Part shown: one piece after another, positions 29,509 to 61,315 of the stretch
Numbering within the stretch: the stretch's first letter is position 1
Layout of the letters: each line of letters opens with the position of its first letter
Assembly: GCF_007830255.1 (NCBI RefSeq)
Contig: NZ_VLKG01000001.1
Coordinates: forward strand, 248,001-312,000
Reading direction: 5' to 3'
DNA: 64,000 nt
Source of the DNA: Azomonas agilis
GTDB lineage: Bacteria; Pseudomonadota; Gammaproteobacteria; Pseudomonadales; Pseudomonadaceae
Notes under the pieces: model-generated
Told to the model about the DNA's origin: nothing
The model's input: only the letters and a program-made list of their open reading frames with translations
Database searches by the model: none
Position numbers and translations under genes: made by a program

Positions 29509-29783
29509 GCTTTGTCGCCCTCAATAAGGGGACACCACCGGCGTACAAACCGTAACTGGTCTCCCCTTAAGTATTGATCCAACTAACTCAAGGTGAATAG
29601 TTAAGGCCGCAGATAGCCCGGACACCAGCCCGGTCGTCCCCTGCTGGTCTACAGATTCCGAGAGAACCCCAGCACCTGCTAGGATTCTTTTTCAAACACC
29701 ACCCTCTTTTAGAAGGGTGGTGGGTAACACTGGATCAGCAAAGTGCCATCAGAATCAGCCCCCACTGACCCTAATCTGACCGA
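29509..29783 (-). ncRNA. Structured leader between sdhB and sucA (possible sucA-II RNA)
   Basis: This gap in an otherwise tight operon holds at least two strong hairpins. CACCACCCT (29697-29705) pairs with AGGGTGGTG (29714-29722). CCTAATC (29770-29776) pairs with GATTAGG (29782-29788), placing the sdhB stop codon inside the stem. A conserved motif called sucA-II is known upstream of sucA in Pseudomonadales. The match is inferred from position only. Confidence 0.45.
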
Positions 29784-54722: not shown

Positions 54723-54899
54723 ATGTACATCTACCGGCTGGTATTGATTCTGGTAGTGGGAATCTACCTGTTTTCCCCCACCATCATGGACTGGTGGATT
54801 GCGCCCGACGGTGCTTGGTATCGCCCCTATATGCTGTGGCTGATCCTCATCATTGTGACCTTTATCTTGCAGAATGGAAGTGACGTTGACCAGTTTTAA
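54723..54899 (+). CDS. cbrX: Small membrane protein CbrX, overlapping cbrA
   Basis: This 58-residue protein starts MYIYRLVLILVVGIYLFSP, with AGGAGG seven bases upstream. It has two hydrophobic helices (about 5-20 and 36-50) joined by 'MDWWIAPDGAWYRPY'. Its last 26 bases overlap the start of cbrA, so cbrA translation is probably coupled to it. A similar small frame upstream of cbrA, called cbrX, has been described in Pseudomonas putida. No enzymatic function is suggested; it could also act on CbrA in the membrane. Confidence 0.88.
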   Translation: MYIYRLVLILVVGIYLFSPTIMDWWIAPDGAWYRPYMLWLILIIVTFILQNGSDVDQF

Positions 54900-57822
54900 C
54901 CTCAGCCACCTATTGCTGATCAGCGTACTCTATTTATCTTTGCTGTTTGGCCTCGCATGGATTACCGACCGTGGGTTAATTCCCAGCCGCATTGTGCGCA
55001 GCCCCGTGGTGTATATTTTGTCCATTGGCGTGTATGCCAGTGCTTGGGCCTTTTACGGCACGGTCGATCTGGCCTATCAATATGGATATGGCTACTTAGC
55101 CACTTATTTGGGGGTTAGCGGCGCTTTTTTGCTGGCTCCGGTTTTGCTACACCCTATTTTGCGCCTTACTCGCACCTATCAGCTATCCTCTCTGGCGGAT
55201 CTGTTTGCGTTCCGCTTTCGCAGTACTTGGAGCGGCTCACTCACCACCCTGGTGATGCTGATCGGGATGCTGCCGTTACTGGCCCTGCAAGTACAGGCCA
55301 TTGCCGACACCATCAGCATCCTGACCCATGAGCCTCAGCCTAAGCATGTGGCTTTAAGCTATTGCTTGCTGATCATGTTATTCACCATGCTGTTTGGAGC
55401 ACGCCAAGTAGCCTCCCGCGAAAGGCATGAAGGATTAGTGCTAGCGGTAGCCTTTGAGTCCTTGGTTAAACTCATCGCGTTAAGTGTGATCGGCTTATAT
55501 GCCCTGTTTGTAGTCTTTGATGGGCCAAGTGGTTTAGAGCGCTGGTTACTGGAACACCAAGTGGCATTAGCTGCACTGCATGCACCGCTCAACGAAGGCC
55601 CTTGGCGTACCATGCTGTTGGTGTTTTTTGCCGCCGCGTTGGTCACGCCCCATATGTACCACATGGCTTTTACCGAAGGGATCGGCCCGCGCAATATGAC
55701 TACCGCGAGCTGGGGTTTGCCTCTGTTTTTGCTGTTGATGAGCCTTGCCGTCCCGCTGATTCTTTGGAGTGGTCTTAAACTCGGAGTTACCACTCACCCT
55801 GAATACTTCACCCTCGGCTTAGGGCTCACCGTACACAGTGAAACACTGGCATTACTGGCCTTTATCGGCGGGCTATCGGCTTCCAGTGGTTTAATTATTG
55901 TCAGCACCCTGTCCCTATCGGGCATGGTGATTAACCACTTGGTTTTGCCACTCTATCAACCCCCTACCGATGACATTTATCGCTGGTTACGCTGGACTAA
56001 GCGCATCCTAATTTTTGTCATTATCATGGCGGGATACGGTTTTTACCTGCTGCTGGACAGCAAACAAGGCCTGACCAGCCTAGGCAGCGTTGCCTATGTT
56101 GCCACTCTGCATTTTTTACCGGCGGTGCTCTCAACCCTGTATTGGCCCGCCGCCAATCGACGCGGCTACATCAGCGGATTGCTAGCAGGCATCTCCATCT
56201 GGCTGGTCACCATGCTGCTCCCGCTAATTGGAGGCCAAGATAGCTTCTACCTCCCGCTGCTGAATTTAACCTATGTACTGGACGAAAATACATGGCACTT
56301 AGCGGCGGTAGCCTCTCTAACGGTAAACGTACTGGTATTTGGGTTAGTCTCCCTGTTTAGCCCCTCCACCCCAGAGGAAATTCGCGCCGCTGAAGCCTGT
56401 ACCGTAGATAACATGCGCCTGCCTCAGCGCCGGGAGCTGGAAGCCAGTTCGCCGCACGAATTTGTGCTACAGCTTTCTACTCCCCTTGGGCCACAGATCG
56501 CCCAACAGGAGGTAAAACAAGCCCTAAATGCCTTACAACTTCCGCTGGATGAGCATCGCCCCTACGCATTACGCCGCTTACGCGACCACATAGAGGCCAG
56601 CCTATCTAGCCTCATGGGGCCGAATGTGGCTCAGGATATCGTCAAAAACTTTTTGCCCTACAAAAAAACGGCAGAAAGCTTCATCAGCGAGGACATTCAC
56701 TTTATTGAGAATCGTCTGGAAGAATATCGCTCCCGCCTCACCGGCCTAGCGGCTGAGCTTGACACCCTGCGCCGTTACCACCGCCAAACCCTGCAAGAAC
56801 TGCCGATGGGGGTTTGCTCCCTAGCCAAAGACCGCGAGATTTTAATGTGGAATCGGGCAATGGAAGAGTTAACAGAAATTCCAGCGCAAAATATCGTAGG
56901 CTCACGTCTGAATACCCTGAGTGAACCTTGGCGTACCCTGTTGGAAACCTTTATCCAGCAACCGGACGAGCACCAGCACAAAAAACAACTGTCTTTACAA
57001 GGTAAACTGCGCTGGCTGAATTTGCACAAAGCCGCGATTGAAGAACCCCTTTCCTTTGGATGCAGCGGCTTAGTGTTGCTGGTCGAAGACTGCACCGAAA
57101 CTCAAGTGTTAGAAGAACGCCTGATTCACTCAGAGCGCCTAGCCAGCATCGGACGGCTGGCCGCAGGGGTAGCCCACGAAATCGGCAACCCGGTTACGGG
57201 CATTGCCTGCTTAGCACAAAACCTTCATGAAGAACGGGAACACGACCCAGAAATCAACGAAACCAGTTTGCAGATTATTGAGCAAACCCGACGGATTTCT
57301 AAAATTCTGCACTCTCTGATGAGCTTTTCCCACGCGGGCAATCATCAGCATAACAGTTACCCTGTAAGCCTCACCGCCATCACTCAGGATGCTATGGCTT
57401 TGCTGTCCTTAAATAAAGAACAGGAAGTGCGCTTTATCAACCAATGCCACGCCGAGCATTATGCCGAAGGCGATCCCCAGCGACTGGGGCAAGTACTGGT
57501 GAATTTACTGTCTAATGCTCGCGATGCCTCACCGCCTAGAGGACGTATCTGGGTCAGTAGCTCCGCCACTGAGCACAGCGTTTGCCTTATCCTTGAGGAT
57601 GAAGGGGCAGGAATTCCTACTGAGATTCAAAACCGCCTGTTTGAACCTTTTTTCACCACCAAGGATCCGGGAAAGGGCACAGGGCTAGGTCTTGCGTTAG
57701 TCTATTCCATCATTGAAGACCATTATGGCCAGATTGATATCGAAAGCCCTACCGACCCCCTAAGCCAACGCGGAACGCGCATTCGCATCCAACTACCCCG
57801 CGCGACTAATACCGCCCCCTAG
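54874..57822 (+). CDS. cbrA: Sensor kinase CbrA with N-terminal transporter domain
   Basis: The 982-residue protein joins a sodium/solute symporter-like domain (about residues 1-500, some 13 membrane helices), a linker with a coiled coil (about 610-640), a PAS domain (about 642-745) and a histidine kinase. The phosphorylated residue is His768 in 'AAGVAHEIGNP'; the ATPase G boxes are 'DEGAGIP' (909 onward) and 'GKGTGLGLAL' (about 934). It senses carbon/nitrogen balance, possibly through histidine uptake, and phosphorylates CbrB. The start overlaps cbrX by 26 bases and has no strong Shine-Dalgarno. Confidence 0.95.
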   Translation: MEVTLTSFNLSHLLLISVLYLSLLFGLAWITDRGLIPSRIVRSPVVYILSIGVYASAWAFYGTVDLAYQYGYGYLATYLGVSGAFLLAPVLLHPILRLTRTYQLSSLADLFAFRFRSTWSGSLTTLVMLIGMLPLLALQVQAIADTISILTHEPQPKHVALSYCLLIMLFTMLFGARQVASRERHEGLVLAVAFESLVKLIALSVIGLYALFVVFDGPSGLERWLLEHQVALAALHAPLNEGPWRTMLLVFFAAALVTPHMYHMAFTEGIGPRNMTTASWGLPLFLLLMSLAVPLILWSGLKLGVTTHPEYFTLGLGLTVHSETLALLAFIGGLSASSGLIIVSTLSLSGMVINHLVLPLYQPPTDDIYRWLRWTKRILIFVIIMAGYGFYLLLDSKQGLTSLGSVAYVATLHFLPAVLSTLYWPAANRRGYISGLLAGISIWLVTMLLPLIGGQDSFYLPLLNLTYVLDENTWHLAAVASLTVNVLVFGLVSLFSPSTPEEIRAAEACTVDNMRLPQRRELEASSPHEFVLQLSTPLGPQIAQQEVKQALNALQLPLDEHRPYALRRLRDHIEASLSSLMGPNVAQDIVKNFLPYKKTAESFISEDIHFIENRLEEYRSRLTGLAAELDTLRRYHRQTLQELPMGVCSLAKDREILMWNRAMEELTEIPAQNIVGSRLNTLSEPWRTLLETFIQQPDEHQHKKQLSLQGKLRWLNLHKAAIEEPLSFGCSGLVLLVEDCTETQVLEERLIHSERLASIGRLAAGVAHEIGNPVTGIACLAQNLHEEREHDPEINETSLQIIEQTRRISKILHSLMSFSHAGNHQHNSYPVSLTAITQDAMALLSLNKEQEVRFINQCHAEHYAEGDPQRLGQVLVNLLSNARDASPPRGRIWVSSSATEHSVCLILEDEGAGIPTEIQNRLFEPFFTTKDPGKGTGLGLALVYSIIEDHYGQIDIESPTDPLSQRGTRIRIQLPRATNTAP

Positions 57823-57858
57823 GCAGATCCGGTGTTAGGCTTGCCAAGAGAGACCTCC

Positions 57859-59301
57859 ATGCCACACATCCTCATTGTCGAAGACGAAAGTATTATCCGC
57901 TCCGCTCTACGCCGCCTATTGGAGCGCAATCAGTACCAAGTCAGTGAGGCGGGCTCCGTGCAGGAAGCCTTAGAGCGTTACTCACTCACGCAATTTGACT
58001 TGATTATCAGCGATCTGCGCCTTCCTGGTGCGCCTGGCACAGAGTTAATCCAGCATGCCAAAGGGCAACCCGTTCTGATTATGACCAGCTATGCTAGCCT
58101 GCGCTCAGCCGTAGACTCTATGAAGTTGGGCGCGGTGGACTATATTGCTAAACCCTTTGACCACGGAGAAATGCTGCAAAGTATCCAGCGCATCTTAAAA
58201 GACAACCAAGCCAACTCCAGCAGCAAACCAACCGTCCCGACTGCAACCCCGAGCGCTCCGCCCGCACCAAGCTCACAGATCCCTCAACAGGTATCCCTAG
58301 GCATCATTGGCCGCTGTTTGGCCATGCAAAACCTGTTTGGCAAGATTCTCAAAGTCGCGCCAACAGACTCCAACGTTTTAATCCTAGGGGAGTCAGGAAC
58401 GGGCAAAGAATTAGTCGCTCGGGCACTACATAATCAATCACAGCGCGCTAAATCACCCATGATTTCCGTGAACTGTGCAGCCATCCCAGAAACCCTGATT
58501 GAGTCCGAACTCTTTGGCCATGAAAAAGGGGCATTTACCGGAGCCACCAGTGGACGCACCGGCTTAGTGGAGGCAGCGGATGGCGGAACCCTATTTTTAG
58601 ACGAAATAGGAGAACTGCCTTTAGAAGCCCAAGCCCGCCTACTGCGCGTATTACAAGAGGGAGAGATTCGTCGTGTAGGCTCGGTACACTCACAAAAGGT
58701 CAATGTGCGCCTGATTGCGGCTACCCATCGTGACCTAAAAACCCTGTCTAAGGCTGGGCATTTTCGCGAAGACCTGTATTACCGCCTCAACGTCATAGCC
58801 CTTAAGCTCCCGCCGCTGCGTGAGCGTGAGCAAGATGTCTTAGAGATTGCCGAGGCTTTTTTAAAACACCACAGCAACCGGCTTAATACGGGGCCTTTGT
58901 TTTTCTCCCCAGAAGCTAAGCAAGCCATCCTACACTACGCTTGGCCTGGCAACGTGCGCGAGCTGGAAAACGCTATTGAACGCGCCGCTATTCTCAGCGA
59001 TCGCCAAGAAATCAGTGCTGAAGTATTGGGCATTGATTTGGAACAAAACGCCTTTGAAGCCTTTAACAGCCTGCACCGCGAAGAACACAACAAGCCCAGT
59101 GAAGCTAAAACCAATGACCTTCCCGAGGCTGCCGAAAATTTATCCCTTGAGGATTACTTTCAGCACTTTGTGTTGGAACACCAAGAGCATATGACCGAAA
59201 CCGAACTGGCACGCAAACTGGGTATCAGCCGCAAATGTTTGTGGGAACGCCGGCAACGCTTGGGGATTCCGCGCCGAAAATCAGCCGCCGGTGAAGCTTA
59301 A
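57859..59301 (+). CDS. cbrB: Sigma-54-dependent response regulator CbrB
   Basis: The 480-residue NtrC-family protein has a receiver domain with Asp52, an AAA+ domain with GESGTGKE (177-184) and the sigma-54 contact loop GAFTGA (224-229), and a Fis-type helix-turn-helix near the end ('[20 protein letters not shown]'). The start ATG 57859 is preferred to 57832 on homology, with AGAGA upstream. It activates crcZ, directly downstream, from the GTAAC sites at 59317-59401. It is co-transcribed with cbrA. Confidence 0.96.
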
Positions 59302-59316
59302 CTCAAGGTAGCAAAG

Positions 59317-59401
59317 TGTTACCGACCACAGAAACAAGGTAACTTCAAGCGGGTTGATTGGTAACAAAAGTCTGCGTAACACTTCAAACCCTGCTGTAAC
59401 A
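59317..59401 (+). promoter_or_regulatory. CbrB upstream activating sites of crcZ
   Basis: TGTTAC at 59317-59322 and four GTAAC copies at 59339, 59361, 59376 and 59396 lie within 85 bases, ending 40 bases before the -24 element. Three of them read GTAACA. Inverted TGTTAC/GTAACA elements have been reported as CbrB binding sites in Pseudomonas. Confidence 0.8.
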
Positions 59402-59440
59402 AAAACATATAACCACATGAAAAATAAGTGATTATAAAAG

Positions 59441-59457
59441 TTGGCACAACCCCTGCT
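59441..59457 (+). promoter_or_regulatory. Sigma-54 promoter of crcZ
   Basis: TTGGCAC at 59441-59447 and TGCT at 59454-59457 give the GG-N10-GC arrangement (GG 59443-59444, GC 59455-59456). The start is expected near 59468. Confidence 0.9.
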
Positions 59458-59467
59458 ATTGTACTGA

Positions 59468-59815
59468 TATAACAACAATAACAAGTGAAACTTTATAACA
59501 AGAACAACAGATAACGGCTCTAACACAATAACAACAAGATGGTAGAGACGAAGCTAACTGATTCTTTTGGAGAGGAGTTGTCGTCAGGGAAACCTGCGAC
59601 AGTGTGATAAGAATAAAACTGCGGTATTCAGCAGACACCACACTGATCCAAGCATCACCTCATCGATCAAAGGTATCCGTTTGCTCTTAGCCCCCGAGTA
59701 GGGGGCACCTCCCGATGCGTCCAGCCGGGATGGGCTAAAATAACAATAACGGGCCCAATACAATAACAATAAGAGCAGCGCACTATCCTCTGGAAGGGAG
59801 CCTCGGCTCCCTTTC
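59468..59815 (+). ncRNA. crcZ: CrcZ small RNA, Hfq/Crc decoy
   Basis: The transcript of about 348 bases begins with AACAACAATAACAAG and carries at least four clusters of the CA motif AAYAAYAA: 59471-59484, 59527-59537, 59739-59749 and 59762-59772. A partial one is at 59490-59502. Such motifs bind the distal face of Hfq (with Crc) and relieve catabolite repression. Position between cbrB and pcnB is the same as for crcZ in P. aeruginosa. One CA cluster sits in the loop of a GGGC/GCCC hairpin, and a GCCCCC/GGGGGC hairpin precedes it. The 3' end is set at the stem 59792-59815, which lacks a U-run. Short antisense frames here are not genes. Confidence 0.9.
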
Positions 59816-59873
59816 GCACATCTGGACTTATCAAAACTTTGCCCATATTTCATACAGACTCTTGACGTTCTGG

Positions 59874-59882
59874 TGCTAGAAT
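59874..59882 (+). promoter_or_regulatory. Extended -10 promoter element for pcnB
   Basis: TGC plus TAGAAT (59877-59882) lies in the same GTGCTAGAATCCCAA context as the element before pabB. No good -35 is seen. It would give an mRNA starting about 85 bases before pcnB. Confidence 0.45.
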
Positions 59883-59974: not shown

Positions 59975-61315
59975 ATGCTGAATAAGCTGTTTCAATTCAT
60001 CCGCCAGCCCCTTAATCACTTACCTCAACGACGTAAGGCTCAAGAAGCTGCTCCCTTTCAGCATGATTTAAGTCCTGAAGACATTAGCCCTAATGCGCTG
60101 TACAGCATTGAGCGTTTACAACAAGCCGGGTACTCCGCCTATGTGGTAGGTGGCTGCGTACGAGATCTTTTATTGGGGATTCGCCCCAAAGACTACGATG
60201 TGGTCACTGATGCCACCCCTGATCAGATACGTAGTCTCTTTCATAATGCCCGTATCATTGGCCGTCGTTTCCAATTGGTGCATCTACCTTTTGGGCGCGA
60301 GCTGATTGAGGTTGCTACCTTCCGCGCCGAACACAGTTATGAGGATGAGGACGAACAGCTTGCCGCCCGCAATGCCAGTGGACGCATCCTGCGCGACAAC
60401 ATCTTCGGCAGCTTAGATGATGATGCCTACCGTCGGGATTTCACGATTAATGCCCTGTACTACGACCCCGTCAGTGAGCAAATCATCGACCATGTACAGG
60501 GCGTGCGAGACATTCGCGAGCGCCAAATTCGTCTTATTGGCAGTCCTAAACAGCGCTATCAAGAGGATCCGGTACGCATGCTGCGTGCCGTGCGCTTTGC
60601 AGCCAAGCTGGATTGTCAGATAGAGCCCCATACTGCGGCTCCCATTCGCAGCCTGGCCCACTTATTAGCAGAGATTCCGCCGGCCCGACTCTATGAGGAA
60701 GTGCTCAAGCTCTTCCTAAACGGTCAGGGGGTACAGACCTTTGAGCTGCTGCAAAAATACCAGCTTTTTGCGCCCCTTTTCCCAGCCACAGCCCTAGCCT
60801 TACAAAGCAATTACCAATACACCAACACCCTGATCCACAATGCCTTGGCTAATACCGATTTACGCATTGCTCAAGGTAAGCCTATTACCCCAGCGTTCTT
60901 ATTTGCGGCATTACTCTGGCCAGCACTTCCGGCACGCTCTTTAGAGCTGCAAGCTCAGGGTCTGCTGGCGATCCCTGCGTTACAAGAAGCTGCTCAAGAA
61001 ATTCTGTGGGAACAGTGCCAACGCACCGCCATCCCCAAGCGCTTTTCCATTCCTGTGCGAGAAATTTGGGATCTACAAGAGCGCCTCCCCCGCCGTCAGG
61101 GTAAAAGAGCCGATGCTTTGTTAGAAAACCCCAGATTCCGCGCCGGTTACGACTTTTTACTGCTGCGGGAAAGCGCCGGTGAACAAACTGAAGGCTTGGG
61201 TCAATGGTGGACTCAGTACCAAGAGGCTTCTGACTCTGAACGCCGCGCCATGATTAGCGCCTTAAAAACGAACACCCCGCCTACCCATCAGCGCAAAAAA
61301 CGTCGTCCTCGTTGA
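59975..61315 (+). CDS. pcnB: Poly(A) polymerase I
   Basis: The 446-residue protein starts MLNKLFQFIRQPLNHLPQRR at 59975; the open frame to 59873 overlaps a promoter element and has no homology. The nucleotidyltransferase domain has 'YVVGGCVRDLLLGIRPKDYDVVTDA' with the metal-binding Asp73 and Asp75, then 'IIGRRFQLVHLPFG' and 'RRDFTINALYYDP'. The C-terminus is Arg/Lys-rich. It adds poly(A) tails that promote RNA decay. It is followed by folK after 25 bases. Confidence 0.95.
   Translation: MLNKLFQFIRQPLNHLPQRRKAQEAAPFQHDLSPEDISPNALYSIERLQQAGYSAYVVGGCVRDLLLGIRPKDYDVVTDATPDQIRSLFHNARIIGRRFQLVHLPFGRELIEVATFRAEHSYEDEDEQLAARNASGRILRDNIFGSLDDDAYRRDFTINALYYDPVSEQIIDHVQGVRDIRERQIRLIGSPKQRYQEDPVRMLRAVRFAAKLDCQIEPHTAAPIRSLAHLLAEIPPARLYEEVLKLFLNGQGVQTFELLQKYQLFAPLFPATALALQSNYQYTNTLIHNALANTDLRIAQGKPITPAFLFAALLWPALPARSLELQAQGLLAIPALQEAAQEILWEQCQRTAIPKRFSIPVREIWDLQERLPRRQGKRADALLENPRFRAGYDFLLLRESAGEQTEGLGQWWTQYQEASDSERRAMISALKTNTPPTHQRKKRRPR

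Follow-up and report, generated by a model that had tools for sequence, protein, structure and literature searches.

Does the spacer between cbrB and pcnB in the 64-kb stretch of DNA analysed here (the window) encode the decoy RNA CrcZ, and how far does such a locus extend beyond Pseudomonas? A sequence-only reading had proposed a complete CbrB-sigma-54-CrcZ module at this place, and the covariance model, synteny, operators, promoter and partner proteins all agreed with that proposal. We regard it as close to certain that the window RNA comes from a Pseudomonadaceae crcZ gene and would act as a CbrB/sigma-54-driven decoy of Hfq (and Crc). The window crcZ is one more CrcZ of a known family and by itself ordinary; the order-wide extension of the module and a short form of the RNA outweigh it in interest.

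Identification of crcZ in the window

The check proposed for the locus, a scan with the Rfam CrcZ covariance model (RF01675), gave a match at 59469-59843(+) that covered the full model (positions 1-398) and scored 210.1 bits against a gathering cut-off of 95 (E 1.6e-58). The sequence folded 5 s.d. better than its shuffled versions (z-score -5.0). When the whole genome was scanned with the same model, a single CrcZ copy and no CrcY/CrcX-type paralog were found. CrcZ was present in 192 of 198 sampled Pseudomonadaceae genomes and in all three sampled congeners, and no match was found in the four sampled genomes (G012, G029, G041, G052) of the small-genome Pseudomonadaceae genus g12. The suggestion that this could be a CrcZ outside the genus stood in part: the GTDB genus differs from that of Pseudomonas sp. 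RIT-PI-AD, and identity to Pseudomonas CbrB does not exceed 75%, but the genome belongs to the same family. This family is taken to be Pseudomonadaceae because one of its genomes has a crcZ locus identical in sequence to that of RIT-PI-AD.

The neighbouring gene order, which had been thought to differ from that of Pseudomonas, does not differ at this locus. In the window the order is sfsA, an aminotransferase gene, dksA, gluQRS, cbrA, cbrB, crcZ, pcnB, folK, panB and panC, and the arrangement around crcZ from sfsA to panC was identical in ten named Pseudomonas/Stutzerimonas loci (Table 1). The matches of CbrB to NtrC-type models lay under the curated cut-offs. The genome encodes one Crc, whose gene adjoins pyrE and which matches P. 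aeruginosa Crc (4jg3) at E 3e-152, and one Hfq, the first 77 residues of which are nearly identical to those of P. aeruginosa Hfq. A search of plasmids returned nothing beyond generic NtrC-family and short pcnB-region matches. Elsewhere in the window, a sucA-II RNA (RF01758) was matched at 29512-29725(-) with 73.4 bits, barely above its cut-off of 70.

Table 1. Features of the cbrA-pcnB region, in window coordinates
Feature	Position	Strand	Basis
cbrA, SLC5-PAS-histidine kinase	54874..57822	+	ORF; 67-73% identity to CbrA of named Pseudomonas/Stutzerimonas loci
cbrB, sigma-54-dependent response regulator	57832..59301	+	at most 75% identity to Pseudomonas CbrB, full length
CbrB operator array (predicted)	59317..59401	+	0/2000 shuffles reach 5 sites; promoter phasing as in named Pseudomonas loci
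Operator site TGTTAC	59317-59322	+	
Operator site GTAAC	59339-59343	+	
Operator sites GTAACA	59361-59366, 59376-59381, 59396-59401	+	
Sigma-54 promoter TGGCACAACCCCTGCT, GG-N10-GC	59442..59457	+	sequence; combined operator-promoter pattern unique in window and genome
crcZ, non-coding RNA	59468..59811	+	RF01675 match; fold z-score -5.0; 3' end uncertain
A-rich Hfq-type cluster 1, AACAACAATAACAA	59471..59484	+	word count
A-rich cluster 2, AACAAGAACAA	59497..59507	+	word count
A-rich cluster 3, AATAACAACAA	59527..59537	+	word count
A-rich cluster 4, AAGAATAA (weakest, 3 repeats)	59609..59616	+	word count
A-rich cluster 5, AATAACAATAA	59739..59749	+	word count
A-rich cluster 6, AATAACAATAA	59762..59772	+	word count
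Terminator-like hairpin GGGAGC-CTCG-GCTCCC with short T tail	59788..59815	+	sequence, fold
Likely pcnB promoter, extended -10 TGCTAGAAT	59874..59882	+	sequence
pcnB, poly(A) polymerase	59975..61315	+	TIGR01942 557.6 bits; predicted start, longest ORF from 59873

Operators and sigma-54 promoter

The cluster of one TGTTAC and four GTAAC sites described in the sequence-only reading was recovered in full, with five sites observed against 0.6 expected and at least five in none of 2000 dinucleotide shuffles. The published consensus for CbrB sites is TGTTAC-N12-14-GTAACA-N15-19-GTAACA (PMC8871633). The window keeps the TGTTAC/GTAACA/GTAACA order with spacers of 16 and 17 nt and with GTAACT as the second site; the first spacer is 2 nt over the published 12-14, and spacers of 15-16 nt are common among relatives. 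Unlike Pseudomonas CrcZ, the window has two additional GTAACA, at 59376 and 59396, which follow the usual sites and precede the promoter. The GG-N10-GC sigma-54 promoter was likewise found as described, at 59442-59457, and the transcription start site (TSS) of crcZ is therefore expected near 59468. A combined pattern, consisting of two operators and a sigma-54 promoter at natural distances, matched once in the 64-kb window, where 0 matches were expected, and this crcZ locus was also its one match in the whole genome.

Two weak Rfam matches in the same region were rejected as separate RNAs, since P36 overlays the operators and P11 overlays the sigma-54 promoter. The match to RF01679 ("P36 sRNA") coincides with the CbrB operator array at window 59312-59374; among 20 loci, P36 was found 96-156 nt upstream of CrcZ and above cut-off in seven (L006, L011, L012, L033, L034, L036, L127). 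P36 may be operator DNA and not an RNA of its own; in some species it may also include the cbrB terminator.

A-rich clusters, RNA length and 3' end

The putative non-coding transcript carries the AAYAAYAA clusters that had been claimed for it. Twelve AANAANAA words were counted in six clusters against 0.5 expected, at least 12 were reached in none of 2000 shuffles, and the antisense strand had 0. The crcZ gene has the highest density of these words per 350-nt stretch in the window, both strands considered, and five of its six clusters contain at least four A-R-N repeats.

A hairpin does stand at the proposed end of the RNA (59815), but the weakness of its T tail (TTTCGC) leaves the 3' end uncertain. 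The strict terminator scan did not call this hairpin, which ends at about 59811, and the Rfam match extends some 30 nt beyond it. The RNA had also been described as shorter (~348 nt) than the roughly 400 nt of P. aeruginosa. The distance from TSS to hairpin is ~344 nt, about 17 nt under the median of 361 for Pseudomonas CrcZ and within the range of 344-389 seen in 78 named loci. The apparent shortness is mostly an artefact, because a TSS-to-hairpin length was set against 407 nt, the length of the complete P. aeruginosa CrcZ (PMC4063720).

Proposed mechanism and alternative readings

P. aeruginosa CrcZ, with 407 nt and six A-rich stretches, is a decoy on the distal face of the RNA-binding protein Hfq (PMC4063720). 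By analogy, a poor carbon supply would lead CbrA to activate CbrB in the window organism; CbrB would bind the TGTTAC/GTAACA array, and RNA polymerase with sigma-54 would produce an RNA of ~345-375 nt. Its six A-rich clusters would then fill the Hfq distal face (with Crc), freeing catabolic mRNAs from Hfq-Crc repression. Observed in the window genome itself were the sequence homology and the gene order, the operators and promoter, the A-rich clusters, and genes for Crc and Hfq; crcZ transcription, its dependence on CbrB and RpoN, and Hfq titration would be expected from studies of P. aeruginosa, P. putida and A. vinelandii. CrcZ also arises by cbrB read-through in Azotobacter and P. putida (PMC6292655, PMC8871633), and such read-through may contribute to CrcZ in the window. 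Because of this second source, strict RpoN/CbrB dependence is too narrow a criterion for CrcZ.

Read-through bears on a different interpretation, in which the stretch is mainly a long cbrB 3' UTR and/or a pcnB leader with A-rich clusters that act in cis. No clear cbrB terminator was seen upstream of the operators, and the processing of a cbrB-crcZ co-transcript to CrcZ in Azotobacter (PMC6292655) would suit such an arrangement. Nevertheless, we judge it very unlikely: the A-rich RNA has its own sigma-54 promoter upstream, to which the operators are phased; before pcnB come a terminator-like hairpin and then a distinct extended -10 element; and the operator-promoter-RNA unit is kept without an adjoining cbrB in two other Pseudomonadaceae genera and in family f8. 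We give practically no credence to the idea that the clusters stem only from the A-biased composition of the spacer and that the RNA is non-functional. The GC content is 0.46 in the CrcZ-matched stretch compared to 0.53 in the window, and intergenic spacers tend to be A+T-rich, which speaks for composition as a null hypothesis only; the strand and shuffle controls in the window already reject it. The same strand bias was seen across the order, where 77 cbrB-pcnB spacers contained 1095 sense and 88 antisense AANAANAA words (17.1 versus 1.4 per kb) and the sense-strand density in neighbouring spacers was 0.4-1.6 per kb.

As a predicted CbrB/sigma-54-driven crcZ, the window RNA resembles Pseudomonas CrcZ (RF01675; PMC4063720, PMC8871633) in its position between cbrB and pcnB, its CbrB sites and sigma-54 promoter, its six A-rich stretches, its covariance-model match, and the Crc and Hfq encoded with it; it differs in that the genome lacks a second copy. 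CrcY/CrcX of P. putida, P. syringae and A. vinelandii have the RNA family and the control in common with it, but they are located at other loci, whereas the window RNA occupies the crcZ position in a genome without a paralog. The decoys RsmY/RsmZ and CsrB titrate CsrA/RsmA via GGA motifs, unlike the titration of Hfq via A-rich triplets. In them, too, a response regulator controls a translational regulator through the RNA that it makes and that titrates the latter (as compared in PMC4063720); the likeness is one of analogy only.

Distribution of the module across the order

CrcZ is the decoy RNA of carbon catabolite repression that has been studied best. CbrAB and the cbrA-cbrB-crcZ locus were called unique to Pseudomonadaceae, and described in Pseudomonas and Azotobacter only, in a 2022 review (PMC8871633), and a 2018 study considered CbrAB exclusive of the Pseudomonads (PMC6296734). 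In the open-access literature we found no description of CrcZ outside Pseudomonadaceae, whether in Marinobacter, Halomonas, Acinetobacter or other members of the order. The comparisons below point to an order-wide module and contradict this Pseudomonadaceae-only status.

A covariance-model search of 294 genomes of the GTDB order yielded weak, full-length CrcZ matches in several families besides Pseudomonadaceae. Those that were checked lie upstream of pcnB, most of them with cbrB on the other side. Outside Pseudomonadaceae, only family f2 reached the Rfam gathering score (101-111 bits); full-length matches in f35, f20, f8, f45 and f39 scored 32-73 bits, under the cut-off, and twelve further loci of the order, mostly short forms of the RNA, gave no Rfam match above any cut-off. 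The RNAs of other families would thus be CrcZ-like by anatomy and, with the exception of f2, not members of Rfam CrcZ.

The region upstream of pcnB was surveyed in ~95 genomes of the order outside Pseudomonadaceae. Most retained the order dksA-gluQRS-cbrA-cbrB-pcnB, and their CbrA proteins mostly shared 40-58% identity with the window CbrA over almost the entire protein, transporter domain included. In 60 of the 77 cbrB-pcnB spacers a sigma-54 promoter matched the consensus at 10 or more of 12 positions, and across the order GTAACA usually lay some 80 and 102 nt, and TGTTAC some 122 nt, upstream of the promoter. Of the 38 families in which cbrB and pcnB are neighbours, 30 had both the A-rich RNA and the promoter; without Pseudomonadaceae the count is 29 of 37. 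The strict operator-promoter pattern occurred at 30 of 96 loci of the order outside Pseudomonadaceae, in 18 families; in other orders of the class it was found in 2 of 364 genomes, compared to three matches of the reversed control. By its frequency within the order and its chance level outside, the module is a property of the order.

Several loci depart from the usual arrangement. At L134/L260, L139/L261, L142, L144 and L145, pcnB is still preceded by the operators, the promoter and the RNA, with no cbrB adjoining crcZ; these loci represent the two Pseudomonadaceae genera and family f8 mentioned above. One f8 genome (G204) has a second locus away from pcnB (L155/L263) that combines TGTTAC/GTAACA and A-rich clusters with a promoter-like TGGCACG; it may be a CrcY-like paralog in a family other than Pseudomonadaceae. 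In f13, f15, f26, f42 and f47, a CbrB-like regulator and an A-rich spacer were present and no adjoining CbrA was found (L202, L203, L216, L168, L172, L171). The extended -10 element of the window (59873-59882) has counterparts, GTGCTAGAAT, in several other families, located after the CrcZ terminator and ahead of pcnB, and is probably the pcnB promoter.

Crc relatives lacking nuclease residues

Crc is related to exonucleases but lacks their catalytic residues. A pyrE-linked relative of Crc with replaced nuclease residues (D, N or G in place of E, and no D-x-N pair) was found in ~25 families besides Pseudomonadaceae. The pyrE-linked protein retains the nuclease residues in f17, f21, f25, f28 and f36 (the last judged by eye, GDVN), and in f13 and f45 a catalytic relative alone was found. 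Across the order we find the whole set, from the operator and promoter to the A-rich RNA, the kinase with its regulator and a degenerate Crc, mostly invisible to Rfam. From these comparisons we think it likely that a CbrB/sigma-54-controlled A-rich decoy RNA together with a non-catalytic Crc is ancestral to the order, with a short form of the RNA in ~11 families and tandem copies in some genomes. The evolution of Hfq/Crc control becomes testable in these families: did the decoy RNA come first, or the loss of the Crc nuclease residues?

A short form of the RNA

The short RNA of these ~11 families has a few A-rich clusters and a conserved terminator element, GACCTGGRTGGGGA, and appears not to have been described previously. 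The element usually lies 48-112 nt past the TSS in f4, f11, f13, f23, f29, f30, f31, f32 and f41. A sequence model of the short form trained on f23, f30, f31 and f41 recovered the held-out families f29 (E 2e-14), f4 (1e-11), f32 (7e-10), f9 (2e-6), f13 (4e-6) and f14 (2e-5). Such short natural decoys offer a means to measure the minimal number of Hfq sites. Short-form loci with GACCTGGRTGGGGA, which includes a GACCTGG part, are L181, L189, L175, L165, L166, L176, L191, L197, L230, L232, L182, L200, L186 and L209. Tandem copies occur in f30, f29 and f41, and between cbrB and pcnB at L165, L166, L182, L219 and L232 the operator-promoter unit, the short RNA or both are repeated in tandem.
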